Below are positions 4,878 through 36,646 of a stretch of 64,000 nt of DNA, piece by piece. How positions within the stretch are numbered: position 1 is the stretch's first letter; each line of letters begins with the position of its first letter. The position numbers were made by a program, and so were the translations under genes. The DNA is from Aequitasia blattaphilus (GTDB lineage Bacteria > Bacillota > Clostridia > Lachnospirales > Lachnospiraceae): NCBI RefSeq assembly GCF_024721305.1, contig NZ_JAMXOD010000002.1:186001-250000 (forward strand), in the 5' to 3' direction. The notes under the pieces are model-generated. The model was not told where the DNA came from and searched no databases. It saw nothing but the letters and a program-made list of their open reading frames with translations.

Positions 4878-6638
4878 CTATTTTCCTTTATTCTCTGCTC
4901 TAAGCAACAAAATTCTTCCATCATTTATAGTCTTATCAACTACCCACTCTTTATCTGGATAATAATTCCATAAATATTCTTCTAGAAATTGTATATCTTG
5001 AAAGGCAGTGATAGCAATATAAACATTTTCGTGCTCAAATAGTGCATTATTGGTTGAGCTAAAACCATATTTCTTATACTTCTCTTGCAACAACGGACTT
5101 CTTGTAAGCCACCCACCAAGAGAAGTGAAACTCAATAACTCATCTTCATTTTCAACATATAATTTGTCACTTGCATCAGCAAAAGAGTACACATAATAGT
5201 AATAGAAATTTTCTTTATTTTCCCTTGAATACTTTATCATGTATGTGTAATCATTTGAGGCTTCAACAATATATTCATATTGCTCACGATCTGCCATTTC
5301 ATTTCTATAAATACAAAAAGAAGCCAATCCAATAACTCCCAAGTAGATACAACTTTGCACTATATAACTACTTCCATATTTGCGTTTTGTATTTACCTTT
5401 ATATCTAAAATGTACAATAATGAAAACAAAACTAAAGGACACCATAAAGTTTCTGCTATTCTTTGCGGAAATCTCATAATAAAAATAAAGTATAAACTCC
5501 CAAATATAACCATCGATGTTGCTGCTCCTAAATGCAAAAATTGTGTCCACCTTCTCTTATATGCAAAAAGTATTATAAACAATATTGCAATTATAACTAA
5601 AAAGAATGGTTGCCATTTAAATGTAGAAAACTTTTGATAACTGCTAATCACGCCAAAAACTGCTCTTTTGAGTTCTCCCTTTAGATTTCTATCAAAATCT
5701 TCTTTTTGATAATCAACCACCTTTTTCATCTTCTCTATTGAGATATCATCTCCCAATGCTAAAGAATAGTTCTTAATTGTCTGCCATTGTATATAATCTA
5801 AATTTATTTCATCAAAGAACTCCTTATTCTCATAATAGTCCGGCATCTTATAATAATCATTAATTTGTGATCGTAATATGTTAAATTCTCGATATGTCTT
5901 ATACTCCTCTTCCTGATAATTAGACTTATCCACCAACCTTATCGAAATCAATGAAGCGCTTACAACAACCAAAATCGTCAAATTAACAAACCATGTGCGT
6001 TTGTTTTTTATATTAGGTTTGTTTTTTATAAAAATGATAATAACAAAAAGAGGAATCATCATATAAAAAACTAATGTCCTATACATAAATCCGAACAGTA
6101 TACAATAGTATATTGCTAAGAGAGAAAAAAGGTTATCTTTTACTTTTTTTGTCCAGTCTGTTGTTGCATATAGAATAATTGCTGTAGACGATAAAACACC
6201 TGAGGTAGTTGTAAATTGAGGAAAAATAATCATGCGTTTAAAAAATAATAAATATACCAACAAATAAAAAAAGATCACATATGTATACTCTTTTATATTG
6301 CCACACTTTTTTATTGCCTTATAAAGTACTATACTTACACAGATAATAACATTTCCAATTATACTGATTAAATACCAAGGAACAGTAGGTAGTCCTTTAT
6401 ATAAAGTACTTAATATTACACCTAATGGATATTGCAAAAAAATCACATGTGGATCCGGCGTCCCCGTCATTGCTCCCGACACAATATCTCGCATACGTGT
6501 ATCGTCAACAGTAGCATAATATGGTTCTCTAAGCCTCAGAAAAATAATACTTATAATTAGATTAAAGACTACTACACCTAAAAAAAGTGCCACTTTTTTA
6601 TATGATATGTTTTGTGTTTTCATACTATTTGTTTTCAT
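4878..6638 (-). CDS. Multi-pass membrane protein, possible GT-C glycosyltransferase (copy 1)
   Basis: The protein has about 586 residues, with roughly 10-12 hydrophobic segments and a soluble C-terminal tail. An acidic pair ('YATVDDTRM') follows the first membrane helix, where GT-C transferases such as ArnT carry their catalytic acid. It is clearly paralogous to the protein at 11648-13417: both share, in order, 'DD', 'SGA.....P.PH..F', 'LYK..P...WY', 'PQFT.TS' and a loop with 'RS...DY' and 'EKM.KV'. I start it at ATG 6638, which has GGTGGG upstream; a GTG at 6653 is also in frame but lacks a ribosome site. If it is a GT-C enzyme it would use undecaprenyl-phosphate sugars on the outer membrane face. 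That role is inferred, not proven by motif. It is very AT-rich. Confidence 0.65.
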   Translation of the reverse strand: MKTNSMKTQNISYKKVALFLGVVVFNLIISIIFLRLREPYYATVDDTRMRDIVSGAMTGTPDPHVIFLQYPLGVILSTLYKGLPTVPWYLISIIGNVIICVSIVLYKAIKKCGNIKEYTYVIFFYLLVYLLFFKRMIIFPQFTTTSGVLSSTAIILYATTDWTKKVKDNLFSLLAIYYCILFGFMYRTLVFYMMIPLFVIIIFIKNKPNIKNKRTWFVNLTILVVVSASLISIRLVDKSNYQEEEYKTYREFNILRSQINDYYKMPDYYENKEFFDEINLDYIQWQTIKNYSLALGDDISIEKMKKVVDYQKEDFDRNLKGELKRAVFGVISSYQKFSTFKWQPFFLVIIAILFIILFAYKRRWTQFLHLGAATSMVIFGSLYFIFIMRFPQRIAETLWCPLVLFSLLYILDIKVNTKRKYGSSYIVQSCIYLGVIGLASFCIYRNEMADREQYEYIVEASNDYTYMIKYSRENKENFYYYYVYSFADASDKLYVENEDELLSFTSLGGWLTRSPLLQEKYKKYGFSSTNNALFEHENVYIAITAFQDIQFLEEYLWNYYPDKEWVVDKTINDGRILLLRAENKGK

Positions 6639-30779: not shown

Positions 30780-31475
30780 TTATCTTTCTTTTTCCAGCTG
30801 CTTTTCCAGCATCTCTCTCGTAATAATCCGTGTATGTGATGGTGCAAAGTATTGGCACTTGGTATCTAACAGCTGAAGCCATGAACGAATAATAATTTCT
30901 TCATCTTCTCCAAAGATTGGAAACATAGAAACAATGCCCTTTCCCATAATATCTCCTACCAAGGCCACATCATCACAAACCACAAAGCTTAAGCTGTCTC
31001 GGGAATGCCCTGGAGTATCGATTACTACAACCTCTTCTCCAATGATTTCTTTCACCACATCCACTGATATAATATGAACATTTTGGCAAGGCTCATACAA
31101 AGAAACATCATAAATCTTTGACAGAGAGGTTGCCATTCTTTCAAAAAATCTTCCTGTAGGACTTAATCCCTTGGGAATTCCCGGTCTTCCAATCAATAAA
31201 TTCAGGCTTCCCAGATGAGACACATAGACTCTGCAGCCGTACTTTTTTGAAAGTGCTTGCGCATTCCCTGCATGGTCTCCATGATTATGCGTCAGAAAAA
31301 TCCCATCCAGCCTGCCTTTGGCATAAGTTTTTATTGCAGACGTGATTTTTCTTCGTTCGATTGGTGTCGCTGTATCAATCAGGACACTTTTACCTTCATG
31401 ACAAATCAGATAACACTTGCAGCGAATTGTACTAATTCGATATATTTGATATCCATTTCGATCGTATATTTGCAT
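30780..31475 (-). CDS. MBL-fold metallo-hydrolase
   Basis: The protein has 231 residues from ATG 31475, which has GGAG 8 bases upstream; a longer frame to 31544 would overlap the helicase gene. The metallo-beta-lactamase zinc motif 'FLTHNHGDHAGNA' (HxHxDH) is at about residue 60. Further metal ligands appear in 'DTPGHSRDSLSF' (about 150), 'VGDIMG' and 'FAPSHTRI' (about 210). The family includes glyoxalase II, nucleases and quorum-sensing lactonases; this protein lacks the extra domains of DNA-repair nucleases such as SNM1. It follows the helicase closely, so it may be the last gene of the SOS-type operon. Confidence 0.82.
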   Translation of the reverse strand: MQIYDRNGYQIYRISTIRCKCYLICHEGKSVLIDTATPIERRKITSAIKTYAKGRLDGIFLTHNHGDHAGNAQALSKKYGCRVYVSHLGSLNLLIGRPGIPKGLSPTGRFFERMATSLSKIYDVSLYEPCQNVHIISVDVVKEIIGEEVVVIDTPGHSRDSLSFVVCDDVALVGDIMGKGIVSMFPIFGEDEEIIIRSWLQLLDTKCQYFAPSHTRIITREMLEKQLEKER

Positions 31476-31515
31476 TTTCTTTTCTCCAGTTAGAATAAAT
31501 CCTCTGCCTATCATA

Positions 31516-33882
31516 CTACAAAGTGTAATTATTTTCAATTTCAAACCAAAATTCGCATATTTCTCTTTTAATGTTTGAAATTGTGCACAGCTCTATCTTT
31601 TCCCATTCCCTTGGAAAGATTGCTCTGTATTCATTTCGTTTAAAGCGTTCATCTAAAAGTAAGATTATTCCCCTGTCCTTTTCCGTACGTATGACGCGCC
31701 CTGCCGATTGCAAAACCTTATTCATTCCAGGATACAGATAAGCGTAGTTAAAACCATTTTCTCCTTTTTTGTCAAAATATTCCTTTAACAGCTCCCGCTC
31801 TCTTCCGATTTGGGGAAGACCTGTTCCTATTATAATAGCGCCAATTAATTTATCCTTGGTCAGGTCAATGCCTTCTGAAAAAATTCCTCCCATCACCGTA
31901 AATCCCACAAAGCTTTCCTCTCGCTCTTCTGTAAAATTTTCCAGAAATATTTCTCTCGCTTCTTCCGACATATAAGGACCTTGGGTAGCATATTCGATTT
32001 TTTCACCCTTACTCACTTCCAAAAATTCCATATAAACATCTTCTAAAAACTGGTAGGAAGGAAAAAAGACTAAGTAATTCCCCTTTTGGGTTTGTACCGT
32101 ATCAAGTATGTATTGGGCATATTTTTTATACGTATCCGGTCCCCGCATCGTATATTTTGTAGACACATCTCCACCAATTAGAATCTTTCGGTTTTCCCCT
32201 CGAAAAGGCGAGCTTGCATACACCGCATAATCGTCCTCTCTTGTGCTTAAGAGGCCCTTATAATATTTTACCGGTAACAAGGTGGCCGAAAAAAATATAC
32301 TAGAGACTCCCTTATCCAGATATTTACTTAGGTTTGCACCGGGATTTACGCAAAAGAGACATACCTTGAATTCTCCCGACGATCCATTTTCTTCATAGAT
32401 TTGATAGTTCTCATCTAAGTTTTCATATACAGATAAAAAACTCCTTACCTTAAAGAATAACCCCAATACATCCTCTTCTACCTTTTTACTTTTATTCTCA
32501 TCAAAGTAGCGTTCCATCTCAAACATAAGTTTAGACAAACTAAAATAGAGATCTGGAACACTTTCCAGCACCCTAAAGTCATCACATTCCTTTTTCATTT
32601 CCAGCATTTTTTTATTCACAGCAGCTAATGCTTTTTTTAATCTTTCATTCTCATTTCCCAGAACCTTCTTTGCCTGTAAAAAGTCCTGCTTGTAAATCGT
32701 GGCACTGTACATATCCCTTCCCCGCTCCACCAGGTTGTGAGCCTCATCAATGAGGAAAAGATAGTCGCCCTTGACACTATCTGCAAAGAATCGTTTTAAA
32801 TGGGCATTCGGGTCAAATGCGTAATTATAATCACAGATAATACCATCCATCCAAAGAGAAATATCCAGCCCCAGCTCAAAAGGACACACTCTCCACTTCT
32901 TTGCATGCTCTTCTATGGTTTCCCGGTCAAACACGTCCCTTTGGGTAATCCCATCAAATACTGCATCGTTAATGCGATCATAATGCCCCTTTGCATAAGG
33001 ACAGTATTCCGGATTACAGTTGGTCTCATCCATAAAACAAATCTTATCCTTTGCAGTCAGAATAATGGTTTTAAATAAGAGACCCTTTTCCCTTAGCTTT
33101 TCATATCCTTGATGAGCAACTACTCTGGTGATTGTTTTCGCCGTAAGATAAAAGATTTTTTCTCCCAGCCCTTCTCCTACTGCCTTCACAGAAGGAAAAA
33201 GAGTTGCAAGGGTTTTTCCTACTCCTGTAGGGGCTTGGATAAAGAGCTGCTTCTTCCGCAATATAGAGCGATACACTGAAAGCACCAGCTCTTTTTGCCC
33301 TTCCCTGTATTCATAGGGAAATTCCACCTGCTTGATACTATCGGTACGTATCTTTCCCCATTCTATGGAAAAACTCGCCCATTTCCGGTATTCTGCCAAA
33401 AGCTCATCTAACCATTCTCTTAGATATTCAGAAGTAAAAAGCTCGCGAAATCTTTTCACTTCTTCCGTTTCCAGATTTGCATAAGTCATCTGAACAGCAA
33501 TTTCTTTTAATTGGTTATCTTCTGCATAAATACAGGCATAGCACATAGCCTGTGCAAGATGAACTTTCACAGGCTTTTCCATTTGATGAATGTCTGCTAA
33601 AACCCCTTTAATTTCATCGATGCAGACACCCTCCTCGTCTTTTATTATTCCATCGGCTCTTCCTTCTAGCTGAAGAAAAATACCCTCTAAGTCATAAGTT
33701 TTCTTTAGGGATACCTCTGAAGTGTAATTGCTTCCCATTCTTTGCTGAATTTTTCTATGAAGTCTTGCTCCCTGCTGCATTGCATCTAAGTCCATCCCAC
33801 CGCTGCGATTGTCAATATCTCCTTCTTGCAACAGGAATTCCACAAAGTTTCTTACCGATATCCTTACATGATTTTTTTCCAT
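31516..33882 (-). CDS. XPD/DinG-type helicase with N-terminal Cas4-like nuclease domain
   Basis: The protein has 788 residues from ATG 33882; a TTG at 33900, overlapping the upstream gene, is the alternative. An N-terminal PD-(D/E)XK segment is visible: 'LEGRADGI' about 10 residues before 'VCIDEIKGV', giving the D...ExK core (near 77 and 90-92). Helicase motifs follow: Walker A 'APTGVGKT' near 217-224, four cysteines near 282, 289, 294 and 333 that match the iron-sulfur cluster of XPD/DinG enzymes, and DEAH ('LIDEAHNL') near 379. Motif VI appears as 'QSAGRVIRTEKDRGI'. The protein should unwind DNA with 5'-3' polarity and may cut it. It follows the TIGR03915/TIGR03916 pair under a LexA-box promoter, which supports a DNA-repair role. 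Confidence 0.88.
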   Translation of the reverse strand: MEKNHVRISVRNFVEFLLQEGDIDNRSGGMDLDAMQQGARLHRKIQQRMGSNYTSEVSLKKTYDLEGIFLQLEGRADGIIKDEEGVCIDEIKGVLADIHQMEKPVKVHLAQAMCYACIYAEDNQLKEIAVQMTYANLETEEVKRFRELFTSEYLREWLDELLAEYRKWASFSIEWGKIRTDSIKQVEFPYEYREGQKELVLSVYRSILRKKQLFIQAPTGVGKTLATLFPSVKAVGEGLGEKIFYLTAKTITRVVAHQGYEKLREKGLLFKTIILTAKDKICFMDETNCNPEYCPYAKGHYDRINDAVFDGITQRDVFDRETIEEHAKKWRVCPFELGLDISLWMDGIICDYNYAFDPNAHLKRFFADSVKGDYLFLIDEAHNLVERGRDMYSATIYKQDFLQAKKVLGNENERLKKALAAVNKKMLEMKKECDDFRVLESVPDLYFSLSKLMFEMERYFDENKSKKVEEDVLGLFFKVRSFLSVYENLDENYQIYEENGSSGEFKVCLFCVNPGANLSKYLDKGVSSIFFSATLLPVKYYKGLLSTREDDYAVYASSPFRGENRKILIGGDVSTKYTMRGPDTYKKYAQYILDTVQTQKGNYLVFFPSYQFLEDVYMEFLEVSKGEKIEYATQGPYMSEEAREIFLENFTEEREESFVGFTVMGGIFSEGIDLTKDKLIGAIIIGTGLPQIGRERELLKEYFDKKGENGFNYAYLYPGMNKVLQSAGRVIRTEKDRGIILLLDERFKRNEYRAIFPREWEKIELCTISNIKREICEFWFEIENNYTL

Positions 33883-33886
33883 TTCT

Positions 33887-34654
33887 CTATGATAACACAA
33901 ATTCCGTCATATTTCCTCTATATCTGAGAGGCAAATGATTCATTTGGCATCTTCTGTTTTCCCGTGAAGCAATCGATATAGATTTACAAAAGCCCTGCCA
34001 CATACGAGAAAATTCTTCTTCCTTTTCTGAAAATTGTAAGGTTTTCTCAATCTTTAATTCTTCATCCGAAACCAAAACCCATTGTTTCTTCGCCTCATGC
34101 ACCACAAGCATATGATGGCTTTTGTCATAAATCATCCAGTTTTCCACTGGCAATCGGTCTGCAAAATGAGGTGCAAGACAAGTAAGCACCTGATTTTTAG
34201 GAGTGATTTCTCCATACAAAATCTGGCTCTGCAGCTCTTTAAACCTTACAAATCCAGTAAGATTGTGAGCTTCACCTCCTACATTCCGGCTGAGGGCAAA
34301 TACCTTTAATACACTTGGGTTTGACAAATGCTCCATAATCTTTTTACTATCCTTTAATTTCCTGGCCTCTAAAATGGTCTCTGCTATTGCATTGCCTTTA
34401 CTGTAATCAAAAGAAAGAGCAGCATGATAAATATCCCAATAGGCAGCATAGCCTAAATGTCTCTTAATCATCGATTCAACTGCCAGCACTTTTCGGTTGT
34501 TCTCCTCAACCTCCACATAAGTAGAAAAAAGTTCCAGCTCTCCGTCTTCTTTGATTTTAATTCCCCACTCTTCGTCTCGTCTTTCCTTCCATCCATCATA
34601 GATAGCAGAAAATATTCCCGTTACGGTATTACTGCATTGATATACGGTTTTCAA
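33887..34654 (-). CDS. TIGR03915/DUF4130-family putative DNA repair protein
   Basis: The protein has about 255 residues from TTG 34654, chosen because GGAGG lies 8 bases upstream; GTG and TTG codons further upstream sit inside or before that site. It begins 'LKTVYQCSNTVTGIFSAIYD', and has 'GEAHNLTGFVRFKEL' near 135 and 'PHFADRLPVENWMIYDKS' near 170, all family hallmarks. In many genomes this protein is encoded beside the TIGR03916 radical-SAM protein, and in some it is fused to a uracil-DNA-glycosylase domain. No glycosylase domain is present here. The pair's biochemical reaction is not established. It overlaps the radical-SAM gene by 26 bases, so co-translation is likely. Confidence 0.87.
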   Translation of the reverse strand: MKTVYQCSNTVTGIFSAIYDGWKERRDEEWGIKIKEDGELELFSTYVEVEENNRKVLAVESMIKRHLGYAAYWDIYHAALSFDYSKGNAIAETILEARKLKDSKKIMEHLSNPSVLKVFALSRNVGGEAHNLTGFVRFKELQSQILYGEITPKNQVLTCLAPHFADRLPVENWMIYDKSHHMLVVHEAKKQWVLVSDEELKIEKTLQFSEKEEEFSRMWQGFCKSISIASRENRRCQMNHLPLRYRGNMTEFVLS

Positions 34655-35960
34655 AACTTCCACCTCCAAATCTCACATCATCAAACAAGGACATTTGCTG
34701 ATAAGTCATCCCATCTACTCCTGCCGGTAAACGCTCCTTATGATCCAGCATATTTCTGGCAATATAGTCTTCCTCCAGCTTTGTCTTGTACATCATCCGT
34801 CCACTGCATGTGATAAAGTACAAAGCCCGTTTCAAAACCACGCCCATCTTTTTCAAGTCATTAAAATCAAGGGTTCCTAGTCTTCTTGCTTTCACAATTC
34901 TGGTGGCGCTGGTATACCCGATTCCAGGAACCCGAAGGAGTACCTCATATTTCGCTGCGTTAATCTCTACCGGGAAATACTCCAGATTTTTTAGTGCCCA
35001 ATTACACTTCGGGTCAAATAGGACATTGAAGTTTGGACTTTTTTCATTTAAGATTTCATCTGCCCGAAAACGGTAATAGCGAAGAAGCCAATCTGCCTGA
35101 TAAAGTCTATGTTCTCTTAAAAGAGGCGGTCCTTCTCCTGTTTTTGCCGGTAAGGCTTTATCCTCATTTACATGGATGAATGCAGAATAAAATACTCTTT
35201 TCAATTCAAACTTCTGGTACAAACTCTCTGCAACCTTTACAATCTGGTAATCACTTTCTGGCGTAGCACCGATAATCATCTGAGTGCTTTGCCCTGCCGG
35301 AACGAATTTCGGGGTATTTTTATAAGTAACCAACTCATATCCATTCTGGCTCCTTTGGTTTTGCACCAAACGCATTGGCTTTAAAATGCTTTCCCGGCTC
35401 TTATGGGGAGCAAGGGCTCGCAGCCCCTCTGCCGTAGGCAGTTCTAGGTTTACACTCATACGATCCGCTAAAAATCCCAGCTTCGTTACCCACTCCTGGC
35501 TTGCCCCTGGGATTGCTTTTACATGAATATAGCCTTGGAAGTTATGTACCGTTCGTAACTTATGCAGGGTGGCATAAATTAATTCCATCGTATAGTCCGG
35601 ACTTCTCATCACCCCTGAGCTTAGGAAAAGCCCCTCAATGTAATTTCTCCGATAAAATTCCATCGTCAAACTACACACCTCATCCGGTGTAAATGCTGTA
35701 CGCTCTATATCATTACTCCGTCTGTTGTAACAATACTTGCAGTCATAGACACATTCATTCGTAAAAAGAATTTTCAAAAGGGAAATACATCTGCCATCTG
35801 CGGAAAAAGAATGACAAATCCCTGCCGCCTGGCAATTCCCGATTCCAGTTCCATCATTTTTCCGGTCTACTCCACTGGAGGTACAGGCAACATCATATTT
35901 TGCTGCATCGGACAGGATATTTAATTTATCATATAAGGATTTTTCTTCTTGGATTCTCAC
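34629..35960 (-). CDS. TIGR03916-family radical-SAM protein, putative DNA modification/repair
   Basis: The 443-residue protein has a radical-SAM cluster motif CxxxCxxC ('CVYDCKYCYNRR', near 70-77), four more N-terminal cysteines ahead of it that could hold a second metal site, and a C-terminal helix-hairpin-helix ('LLRVPGIGYTSATRIV', near 345) for DNA binding. TIGR03916 members pair with TIGR03915 proteins, and a DNA modification or repair role is proposed. The start is uncertain: GTG 35960 lies 7 bases after GGAGGG, while ATG 35966 is too close and ATG 35981 would leave almost no leader. It is the first gene of an operon whose promoter contains a LexA box, so DNA damage should induce it. Confidence 0.88.
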   Translation of the reverse strand: MRIQEEKSLYDKLNILSDAAKYDVACTSSGVDRKNDGTGIGNCQAAGICHSFSADGRCISLLKILFTNECVYDCKYCYNRRSNDIERTAFTPDEVCSLTMEFYRRNYIEGLFLSSGVMRSPDYTMELIYATLHKLRTVHNFQGYIHVKAIPGASQEWVTKLGFLADRMSVNLELPTAEGLRALAPHKSRESILKPMRLVQNQRSQNGYELVTYKNTPKFVPAGQSTQMIIGATPESDYQIVKVAESLYQKFELKRVFYSAFIHVNEDKALPAKTGEGPPLLREHRLYQADWLLRYYRFRADEILNEKSPNFNVLFDPKCNWALKNLEYFPVEINAAKYEVLLRVPGIGYTSATRIVKARRLGTLDFNDLKKMGVVLKRALYFITCSGRMMYKTKLEEDYIARNMLDHKERLPAGVDGMTYQQMSLFDDVRFGGGSFENRISMQ

Positions 35961-35992
35961 ACTCATTCCCTCCCTCAACATTTGTTTCTTTT

Positions 35993-36021
35993 ATTATATC
36001 GAACATTTGTTCTTTTGTAAA
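35993..36021 (-). promoter_or_regulatory. Sigma-A promoter of the radical-SAM/helicase operon
   Basis: On the minus strand, TTTACA (36016-36021) and a perfect TATAAT (35993-35998) are separated by 17 bases, the optimal spacing. Transcription would start near 35986, about 25 bases before the GTG at 35960. The LexA box lies entirely within the spacer. Confidence 0.85.
36001..36012. promoter_or_regulatory. LexA (DinR-type) SOS box
   Basis: The sequence GAACATTTGTTC is a perfect match to the Gram-positive LexA consensus GAAC-N4-GTTC. It occupies the spacer between the -35 and -10 of the leftward operon, so bound LexA would block RNA polymerase. A degenerate second copy, CAACATTTGTTT, sits at 35976-35987 around the predicted transcription start. 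Rightward transcription of the toxin-antitoxin genes could be affected as well. Confidence 0.88.
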
Positions 36022-36040: not shown

Positions 36041-36073
36041 TTATGATAAAATTATGATAAAATTACGATATTA
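36041..36073 (+). repeat. Three tandem 11-bp repeats, likely operator/promoter of the TA pair
   Basis: TTATGATAAAA occurs twice back to back (36041-36051, 36052-36062), followed by a diverged third copy, TTACGATATTA. The 11-base period places the copies on the same face of DNA. A candidate promoter, TTGCTT-17-TAAAAT (36035-36040, 36058-36063), overlaps them. Phd-type antitoxins repress their own operons through repeated sites, so these are the natural operator candidates. Confidence 0.6.
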
Positions 36074-36090
36074 AATGTGGAGGTGACATG

Positions 36091-36351
36091 ATGATTCATA
36101 TTCGACCAGTATCAGACTTGAGAAATAAATTCCCTGAAATCGAAAATCTTGTAAAAGAAGGGGGACCAGTTTATTTAACGAAAAATGGACACGGTTCCAT
36201 GGTTGTATTAAGCATAGAGCAATACGGAAAACTCACAGAATATGTCGAAACCCAATTGGATGAAGCTGATATGGTAGCCGAATCCACTAGTCAAAGGCTG
36301 GGACATAACGAAATTTTCCAAAAAGTTCGGAGGAAATTAGATGAATTATAA
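36091..36351 (+). CDS. Phd/YefM-family antitoxin
   Basis: The protein has 86 residues from ATG 36091; GGAGGTG lies 5 bases upstream, and the adjacent ATG at 36088 is only 2 bases away from it. The N-terminal 'IRPVSDLRNKFPEIENLV' followed by 'GPVYLTKNGHGSMVVLSI' is the canonical Phd/YefM DNA-binding domain. The C-terminal 30 residues are acidic, as expected for the toxin-neutralising tail. The gene overlaps the toxin by 11 bases. It should repress its own operon, and loss of the labile antitoxin would free the toxin. Confidence 0.92.
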   Translation: MIHIRPVSDLRNKFPEIENLVKEGGPVYLTKNGHGSMVVLSIEQYGKLTEYVETQLDEADMVAESTSQRLGHNEIFQKVRRKLDEL

Positions 36352-36646
36352 ACTGCAATATCTTTCTCTGTTTGAAGAGGATTTACTCAATGCAGTACTC
36401 TATATTTCTGAAGAACTAAATAATCCCTATGCCGCTCAACGTTTAATAGATGACGTTGAGCGTTCTATTCTTCGTCGTTTGGTAAATCCTTTATCCTTTG
36501 AACCTTTTGTATCTTCTAAAGCACGTGACTCTTTATATTATCGGATATACGTCCGTAATTATACTGTCTATTATGTTGTAATCGATGAAATTATGGAAGT
36601 CAGACGGCTTCTTTATAATGCCTGTAACACAGACGTGCACTTATAA
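36341..36646 (+). CDS. RelE/ParE-family toxin
   Basis: The 101-residue protein has 'SLFEEDLLNAVLYISEELNN' at the N-terminus and the conserved C-terminal strand pattern 'YYRIYVRNYTVYYVVID' and 'EVRRLLY', typical of the RelE/ParE superfamily. ParE-like members poison gyrase and RelE-like members cut mRNA on the ribosome; the sequence alone does not decide between them. GGAGG lies 7 bases before the ATG, inside the antitoxin's last codons. The reading frames overlap by 11 bases. The pair ends at a strong bidirectional terminator. Confidence 0.9.
   Translation: MNYKLQYLSLFEEDLLNAVLYISEELNNPYAAQRLIDDVERSILRRLVNPLSFEPFVSSKARDSLYYRIYVRNYTVYYVVIDEIMEVRRLLYNACNTDVHL

Follow-up and report, generated by a model that had tools for sequence, protein, structure and literature searches.

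We examined an operon within a 64,000-nucleotide stretch of the Aequitasia blattaphilus genome (hereafter the window; contig NZ_JAMXOD010000002.1, positions 186,001 to 250,000, from a 3.2-Mb assembly in 60 contigs) and found that the LexA box at its promoter, here a perfect one, has counterparts upstream of the homologous genes of other bacteria. The operon lies on the minus strand and encodes a radical S-adenosylmethionine (SAM) protein of family TIGR03916 (rSAM) with a helix–hairpin–helix (HhH) domain, a DUF4130 protein of family TIGR03915, a helicase of the XPD/DinG type that carries a Cas4-like nuclease motif, and a metallo-β-lactamase (MBL)-fold protein. These identities agree with an earlier note made from the sequence alone; both members of the rSAM/DUF4130 pair score above the model cut-offs, and the helicase matches Helicase_C_2 and DEAD_2. 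Comparative sequence evidence strongly supports placing the pair in the SOS response, with LexA dialects that differ between bacterial groups. The locus is best explained, with a probability of roughly 0.76, as a LexA-repressed SOS operon that would comprise a damage-induced pair acting on DNA lesions, an optional helicase-nuclease, and an MBL passenger.

LexA boxes upstream of the radical SAM gene

The operon promoter reads TTTACA-aaaGAACAAATGTTCga-TATAAT on the minus strand, with TTTACA at 36021-36016 and TATAAT at 35998-35993, and its 17-base spacer holds the entire LexA box, as the earlier note had reported. This promoter is the best-scoring of 16 promoter-like sites between 30500 and 36300; shuffling predicts 15.5 such sites, so weight attaches only to how good it is and where it lies. 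The box is GAACATTTGTTC, and no other perfect GAACN4GTTC occurs in the window. At no more than one mismatch, the window contains 12 sites compared to 18.6 expected by shuffling, and 98 of 100 shuffles reach at least 12, so the pattern by itself is no evidence. Together with a degenerate second box beyond the −10 element, AAACAAATGTTG, which the earlier note does not mention, the perfect box flanks that element.

The evidence comes instead from comparison across genomes. A TIGR03916 protein scores above the cut-off in 169 of 299 genomes (298 genera) of the family Lachnospiraceae, from which we took the window and 110 others from the top of the list (n = 111, 58 left out). Start codons in this family set and in the phylum set were picked by a script through alignment to the window protein. 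Between −300 and +30 of the rSAM start, 59 of the 111 loci contain a perfect box and 110 contain one with at most one mismatch, locus L051 having none; between −200 and 0, the corresponding counts are 58 and 110. At least two boxes at this mismatch limit occur in 79 of the 111 loci. The reversed pattern, used as a control in the −200 to 0 interval, gave 1 perfect match and 6 with at most one mismatch, and seven other rearranged patterns gave 0 or 1 and 1 to 11, respectively. Of 2023 random 200-bp windows taken from other parts of these loci, 2 contained a perfect box and 121 one with at most one mismatch. The excess of perfect boxes over random windows corresponds to a Fisher p of ~1e-79 with related loci treated as independent. 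The position, spacing, and four central bases of the box differ among family loci, which fits a maintained site rather than copied DNA. The scan of homologous operons for GAAC-N4-GTTC that the earlier note had proposed did find the boxes, and orthologous promoters in the family are not boxless.

Boxes also occur beyond the family. For the phylum set, 40 of the 91 genomes above the cut-off were fetched, one per family with some families left out; 14 of these 40 loci have a perfect box and 28 have one with at most one mismatch. A further set of 80 named loci, which overlaps the other sets and is not independent of them, was scanned from −300 to +120 of the start of the longest open reading frame (ORF), giving 38 perfect boxes and 60 at up to one mismatch. 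Some of its 20 misses are artifacts of start choice: Paenibacillus auburnensis L278 lacks a box, and what is apparently the same locus (L132) shows a perfect one at −46. At least eight misses are titled Oscillospiraceae or bear the name of a genus of that family, and two are titled Lachnospiraceae.

Homologues occur in 158 plasmid records of PLSDB. From 40 of these records as listed, we hand-picked by genus 11 alphaproteobacterial loci of nine genera, using the match start for two loci without annotation and the annotated start for Phaeobacter. At all 11, one strand shows a perfect GTTC-N7-GTTC within −150 to +10 of rSAM, compared to 1 of 626 control windows. In Caballeronia, a betaproteobacterium, CTGTATAAATATACAG at −29 has the form CTGTN8ACAG (a single case with no control), the E. 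coli type of LexA box. Judged by these upstream sequences, the rSAM gene is tied to LexA through two distinct recognition sequences with controls and through a third in a single case. Overall, the family, phylum, named, and alphaproteobacterial comparisons place the operon box far beyond chance.

Within the A. blattaphilus genome, we counted 19 perfect GAACN4GTTC sites and 39 matches to the reversed pattern, and one lone box would therefore be weak evidence. Assigned to ORFs by eye, six of the 19 lie in front of genes, 11 within ORFs, and two in contig-end hairpins. Perfect boxes precede recA (TIGR02012), uvrB (TIGR00631), a duplicate of the start of uvrB, and the gene of a Y-family polymerase whose hits are consistent but under the curated cut-offs; the remaining gene-front boxes are that of the rSAM operon itself and one site near a 73-aa ORF. 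The genome also contains lexA, of whose upstream region 39 bases are on the contig, without a box. As regards membership in an SOS regulon, the box overlaps the promoter, it is conserved above controls, and lexA is accompanied by canonical SOS genes with the same box. Bound between the −35 and −10 elements, LexA would block RNA polymerase. By analogy with known SOS biology, DNA damage would lead to RecA filaments, LexA cleavage, and induction of the operon.

Several of these sites merit separate description. The box GAACATTAGTTC (L011:1519, G000:C27) stands upstream of the 73-aa ORF, which has no Pfam family and is possibly a further SOS gene. The uvrB start and its box are duplicated as an exact 747-bp direct repeat (L010:1174-1920 and 4911-5657; G000:C23:87650-94400). 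One copy continues as UvrB to the end of L010, the other yields a 137-aa ORF, and an AbiEi/AbiEii toxin–antitoxin module (PF08843, PF13338) sits between them; the arrangement looks like an insertion that carried its own copy of the 5′ end. Two perfect sites close to contig ends (L008:1502 and L015:1021) center similar long hairpins and are probably insertion-sequence ends or terminators, not LexA sites.

Table 1. Window coordinates of the operon genes and promoter elements
Feature	Position	Strand	Details
Perfect LexA box GAACATTTGTTC (GAACAAATGTTC on the minus strand)	36001..36012		Pattern scan; box at ≤1 mismatch upstream of rSAM in 110/111 family loci
Sigma-70-type promoter TTTACA-17-TATAAT, LexA box within the spacer	35993..36021	-	11/12 consensus positions
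Degenerate second LexA-like box AAACAAATGTTG, 2 mismatches	35976..35987	-	Read from the promoter region; 25 bases from the first box
Radical SAM/HhH protein, TIGR03916 (rSAM)	34629..35966	-	ATG 35966 after GGAGGG; 687 bits vs cut-off 343.5
DUF4130/TIGR03915 partner	33887..34669	-	Start TTG 34669, or TTG 34654 judged by ribosome site; overlaps rSAM
XPD/DinG-type helicase, putative N-terminal Cas4-like PD-(D/E)XK motif	31516..33882	-	Helicase_C_2, DEAD_2; optional third gene
MBL-fold hydrolase	30780..31475	-	Follows the helicase by 40 bases; promoter-like TTGAAA-17-TATGAT just upstream

Divergent from the operon, a Phd/YefM antitoxin and ParE-type toxin pair occupies 36088-36646 on the plus strand, its start 75 bases from the LexA box. 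The tandem repeat TTATGATAAAA (unit of 11 bases, 2.7 copies, 36041-36070) lies between both divergent transcription units.

The rSAM and DUF4130 proteins

The pairing of rSAM with DUF4130 is nearly constant. The two genes overlap in the window. When 80 family loci were followed up to +6 kb, or as far as the contig went, DUF4130 stood behind rSAM in 78, and in one of the two exceptions the contig stops; the 80 named loci likewise gave 78. Among named organisms, the nearest match that we found to the rSAM protein comes from Faecalicatena contorta, at 78% identity. Relatives that carry the operon include F. contorta (L245) and Claveliimonas bilis (L261). The CX3CX2C cysteines C71, C75, and C78 are invariant, as are C27, C50, and C59. 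The HhH region matches HHH_3 with 26.6 bits, slightly under the gathering score of 27, and its profile matches are ComEA-like.

The DUF4130 protein scores 234 bits against TIGR03915 (cut-off 112) and 164 bits against Pfam DUF4130 (cut-off 27), with E132, R141, F142, F168, R171, D181, R235, and E255 invariant. Its AlphaFold2 model is confident, with a predicted local distance difference test (pLDDT) score of 92.9. Top Foldseek matches of this model are the PAP phosphatase 8a8k (E 3e-5, TM-score 0.37), which we take to belong to the DHH family, a DHH domain, and RecJ/NrnA, all with TM-scores <0.4. A comparison with a profile of seven NrnA-like sequences (hhalign) gave a probability <1%, and a sequence search of the PDB returned one hit with E 0.43. 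Collected RecJ sequences did not enter this comparison; several of them were evidently other proteins. The DHH-like phosphoesterase fold suggested by the model is treated as no more than a lead, because the profile comparison gave no support.

In Caballeronia and in each of the nine alphaproteobacterial records with visible annotation, the gene that follows rSAM is labeled as a member of the UdgX family. Three of these Pseudomonadota partners were scanned, and all contain both DUF4130 and uracil-DNA glycosylase (UDG) domains. Four partners that we checked carry GEQPG together with KRRIH, KRRLH, or, in Phaeobacter, RKRLH; the accessible portion of one study describes GEQPG and KRRIH-type motifs as marks of UdgX (PMC10359453). 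Paracoccus denitrificans PD1222 and Phaeobacter inhibens have this UdgX version on plasmids. In Bacteroides finegoldii, rSAM occurs with a stand-alone DUF4130.

In a LexA-repressed operon, the pair would recognize a DNA lesion through the HhH domain of rSAM and alter or excise it by radical chemistry, with DUF4130 as the constant partner. UdgX or the helicase-nuclease could perhaps complete the job, lineage by lineage. A more specific proposal, which we consider possible yet far from probable, is that rSAM and DUF4130 form an unrecognized radical SOS repair machine. DUF4130, as a divergent DHH relative, would handle the DNA, and rSAM would alter or free the damaged base or sugar. The lesion would then pass to lineage-specific finishers, namely, covalently trapping UdgX in Pseudomonadota and the helicase-nuclease in part of the Lachnospiraceae. 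Such excision would be oxygen-independent and separate from base excision repair and nucleotide excision repair.

It is unlikely that rSAM is a direct-reversal enzyme for an ultraviolet lesion, similar to spore photoproduct lyase (SplB). Both SplB and rSAM are SOS-linked radical SAM DNA enzymes, and DUF4130 is mentioned alongside SplB-like radical SAM photolyases in the portion available of an earlier survey (PMC3765255). However, the Radical_SAM domain hits of rSAM are generic, and the solved folds that resemble it best in a Foldseek structure search are those of HydE, viperin, biotin synthase, and lipoyl synthase. The best 50 of the 1431 Foldseek matches of the rSAM model (pLDDT 78) do not include spore photoproduct lyase, and no NCBIfam SplB hit was found for rSAM at E ≤ 0.001. 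SplB is not known to have a DUF4130 partner.

Less likely still, the pair might make a DNA modification or serve in defense or mobile-element control, with SOS control serving that role and not repair. The NCBIfam wording for TIGR03916, "DNA modification/repair", leaves room for such a role, as do the match of the helicase to the PADLOC type IV-A DinG model and the homologues in 158 plasmid records. Neither rSAM nor DUF4130 has a PADLOC hit at E ≤ 0.01, however, and presence above the cut-off in 169 of 299 family genomes seems to fit an inherited trait better than a sporadic island.

The helicase and MBL genes

The helicase ATG (33882) lies four bases past the DUF4130 stop. Residues 4-762 of its 789 match a solved DNA 5′-3′ helicase, 9kqh (E 4e-153), and the four iron–sulfur (FeS)-type cysteines C283, C290, C295, and C334 are invariant in 15 sequences. 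It is not DinG sensu stricto, scoring 108.5 bits against a cut-off of 789 and 83 against 598, and the YoaA cut-off is likewise far off. A Cas4-like PD-(D/E)XK motif consists of a conserved H, D, ExK, and Q-x3-Y. In the same 15 sequences, the N-terminal residues H43, D78, E91-I-K93, Q112, and Y116 are invariant, and the N-terminus matches phrog_1706 (E 1.4e-13), which PHROG labels "CRISPR/Cas system associated". A Pfam scan found no nuclease domain at the N-terminus. The Cas4-like domain named in the earlier note is accordingly retained as a putative Cas4-like nuclease motif that has the conserved residues and the PHROG match and lacks a Pfam nuclease hit.

Downstream of the pair and in the same orientation, a helicase gene is present in 33 of the 80 family loci, in 17 of the 80 named loci, and in none of the 40 loci from other families; among the 47 family loci where it is not downstream, one has it on the other strand and some contigs end early. 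The helicase occurs somewhere in 253 of 299 family genomes (E ≤ 1e-50), and 14 of 20 listed genomes without rSAM have it. At stand-alone helicase genes, for which upstream distances are approximate, we found no perfect box in 20 rSAM-positive or 20 rSAM-negative genomes. At no more than one mismatch, boxes precede 1 of 20 and 4 of 20, respectively (5/40), which is not far from background. "Stand-alone" in rSAM-positive genomes means on another contig or far off on the same one, and breaks between draft contigs could hide linkage. Operon helicases have their own box in 1 of 43 cases (perfect) or 4 of 43 (at most one mismatch). With boxes absent or rare at the helicase genes themselves, the helicase seems to be SOS-controlled through its place in the rSAM operon. 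In a subset of Lachnospiraceae, the XPD-like helicase with its Cas4-like motif would have joined the operon and so come under SOS control, where it might open and trim the DNA around the lesion. Given its frequencies downstream (33/80 and 0/40) and its wide occurrence alone with no perfect box, we rejected the helicase as a constant part of the operon.

Other genes occupy this region in some relatives. A comM-like gene, recognized by eye, follows in 5 of the 13 helicase-less loci printed. In L053, L056, L060, and L107, a small gene lies between DUF4130 and the helicase; that of L056, the one tested, is HPr-like (PF00381).

All NCBIfam hits of the MBL protein are far under the cut-offs and are mostly to β-lactamases and glyoxalase-type hydrolases. 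We did not find the gene in the operons of relatives (0/80 family and 0/80 named loci), and a role of the MBL protein as the cutting enzyme was rejected on this lack of conservation. The promoter-like sequence just upstream suggests that the gene may have its own promoter, and the protein is most likely a passenger.

These distributions bear on the suggestion in the earlier note that all four genes form a single, complete lesion-processing pathway of modification or reversal, unwinding, and cutting. SOS control of the pair is well supported, and the genes share one strand and one promoter, overlap or nearly touch, and encode a helicase with intact helicase and nuclease motif residues that is also found behind the pair in 33 of the 80 family loci. 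They do not form a conserved unit, however: 47 of the 80 family loci and all 40 loci from other families have no helicase downstream, helicase genes elsewhere show no perfect box, and the MBL gene, with its sub-cut-off hits, was found in none of the 80 family and none of the 80 named operons. We consider a four-gene pathway quite improbable. The view that the box arose by chance as a palindrome, or that it serves a different regulator, is rejected as extremely improbable: although perfect sites number 19 in the genome and 11 of these fall within ORFs, the box is kept in 110 of 111 loci at shifting position and spacing, the other LexA dialect takes its place in 11 of 11 alphaproteobacterial records, and the family, other-family, named, and alphaproteobacterial comparisons all tell against it.

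Several observations weigh against a LexA-repressed SOS operon that acts on lesions. Boxless loci exist (L051 among the 111 family loci, 12 of 40 in other families, and 20 of 80 named loci), and a one-mismatch box occurs in ~6% of random windows. None of the six LexA patterns tried matched upstream of rSAM in the one B. finegoldii locus. DUF4130 was detected by tblastn in only 33 of the 40 other-family loci, and the rSAM model is of moderate quality (pLDDT 78). Finally, the helicase is common without the pair and may therefore have landed in the operon by chance.

Comparison with known systems

The earlier note had presented the box as independent evidence for a DNA-damage role of the pair; it is not the first, because a LexA link is already in print. 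We take COG4277 to be the TIGR03916 protein. In the part available of one study, LexA control is predicted in Bacteroidetes for an operon of two genes, COG1573-COG4277, called "UDG base excision repair", and is said to have been reported for Verrucomicrobia and Alphaproteobacteria (PMC8565304); excerpts of another describe DUF4130 as an enzyme with a predicted link to mutagenesis and connect it, in an SOS context, with SplB-like radical SAM proteins and UDGs (PMC3765255). The same partial source for the two-gene operon notes SOS regulation of SplB in several species (PMC8565304). The alphaproteobacterial operons described here fit the published COG1573-COG4277 description.

Two further reports, which do not state the family, concern radical SAM proteins that are presumably SplB-like; on what their accessible portions contain, they could be closer prior art. 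One places "a radical SAM protein" in the core SOS regulon of Gram-positives (seven species, no Lachnospiraceae) and Balneolaeota (PMC7739468), and the other names a radical SAM protein linked to LexA in Streptomyces venezuelae (PMC9380542). By surface plasmon resonance, C. difficile LexA binds GAACN4GTTT and GAACN4GTTC operators in vitro, and the rSAM/DUF4130 pair is not among the LexA targets in the consulted parts of that paper (PMC4234289). Among the matches listed in a literature search that left most subscription journals uncovered, we found no recognizable report of a clostridial UDG-less operon or its helicase and no description of a reaction for the TIGR03916/TIGR03915 pair.

Near-constant LexA control in the family, together with another dialect in Alphaproteobacteria, suggests that the substrate of the pair appears or matters upon DNA damage. 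LexA control names an inducer and a set of genes with which the reaction could be sought as a DNA-damage step. It also sets a constant core, rSAM and DUF4130, apart from the exchangeable modules UdgX and the helicase-nuclease.

The window operon shares with the COG1573-COG4277 operon an rSAM/HhH gene under LexA with a DUF4130-bearing partner. In the alphaproteobacterial version, rSAM and then a DUF4130-UdgX fusion stand behind a GTTC-N7-GTTC box, whereas in the window operon DUF4130 stands alone, there is no UDG domain, and a helicase-nuclease can follow. A Pfam scan found no UDG in the window operon, the genome has no TIGR03914 match, and among 201 loci, which come from overlapping sets, belong mostly to Bacillota, and are in some cases truncated at a contig end, only 3 have a GE[QA]PG motif behind rSAM, each of them judged to be chance. 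The UdgX domain of the Pseudomonadota partners, a uracil-DNA cross-linking glycosylase as described in excerpts (PMC10359453), is absent from the window operon. In NCBIfam terms, the window pair are adjacent members of TIGR03916 and TIGR03915 ("putative DNA modification/repair radical SAM protein" and "putative DNA repair protein") at about twice the cut-offs, and the present comparison contributes for these families their predicted SOS control in Bacillota. With XPD/DinG helicases, the window helicase shares the FeS-type cysteines, Helicase_C_2, and the 9kqh match; unlike DinG, its N-terminus matches a CRISPR-associated PHROG and shows no DnaQ exonuclease in Pfam. SplB is a radical SAM DNA enzyme like rSAM, with a gene pairing that differs from rSAM/DUF4130, and it is not among the best 50 structure matches. 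What is in print already is the UDG-containing version in other phyla; what is new is a UDG-less clostridial pair under predicted SOS control with an optional helicase-nuclease.

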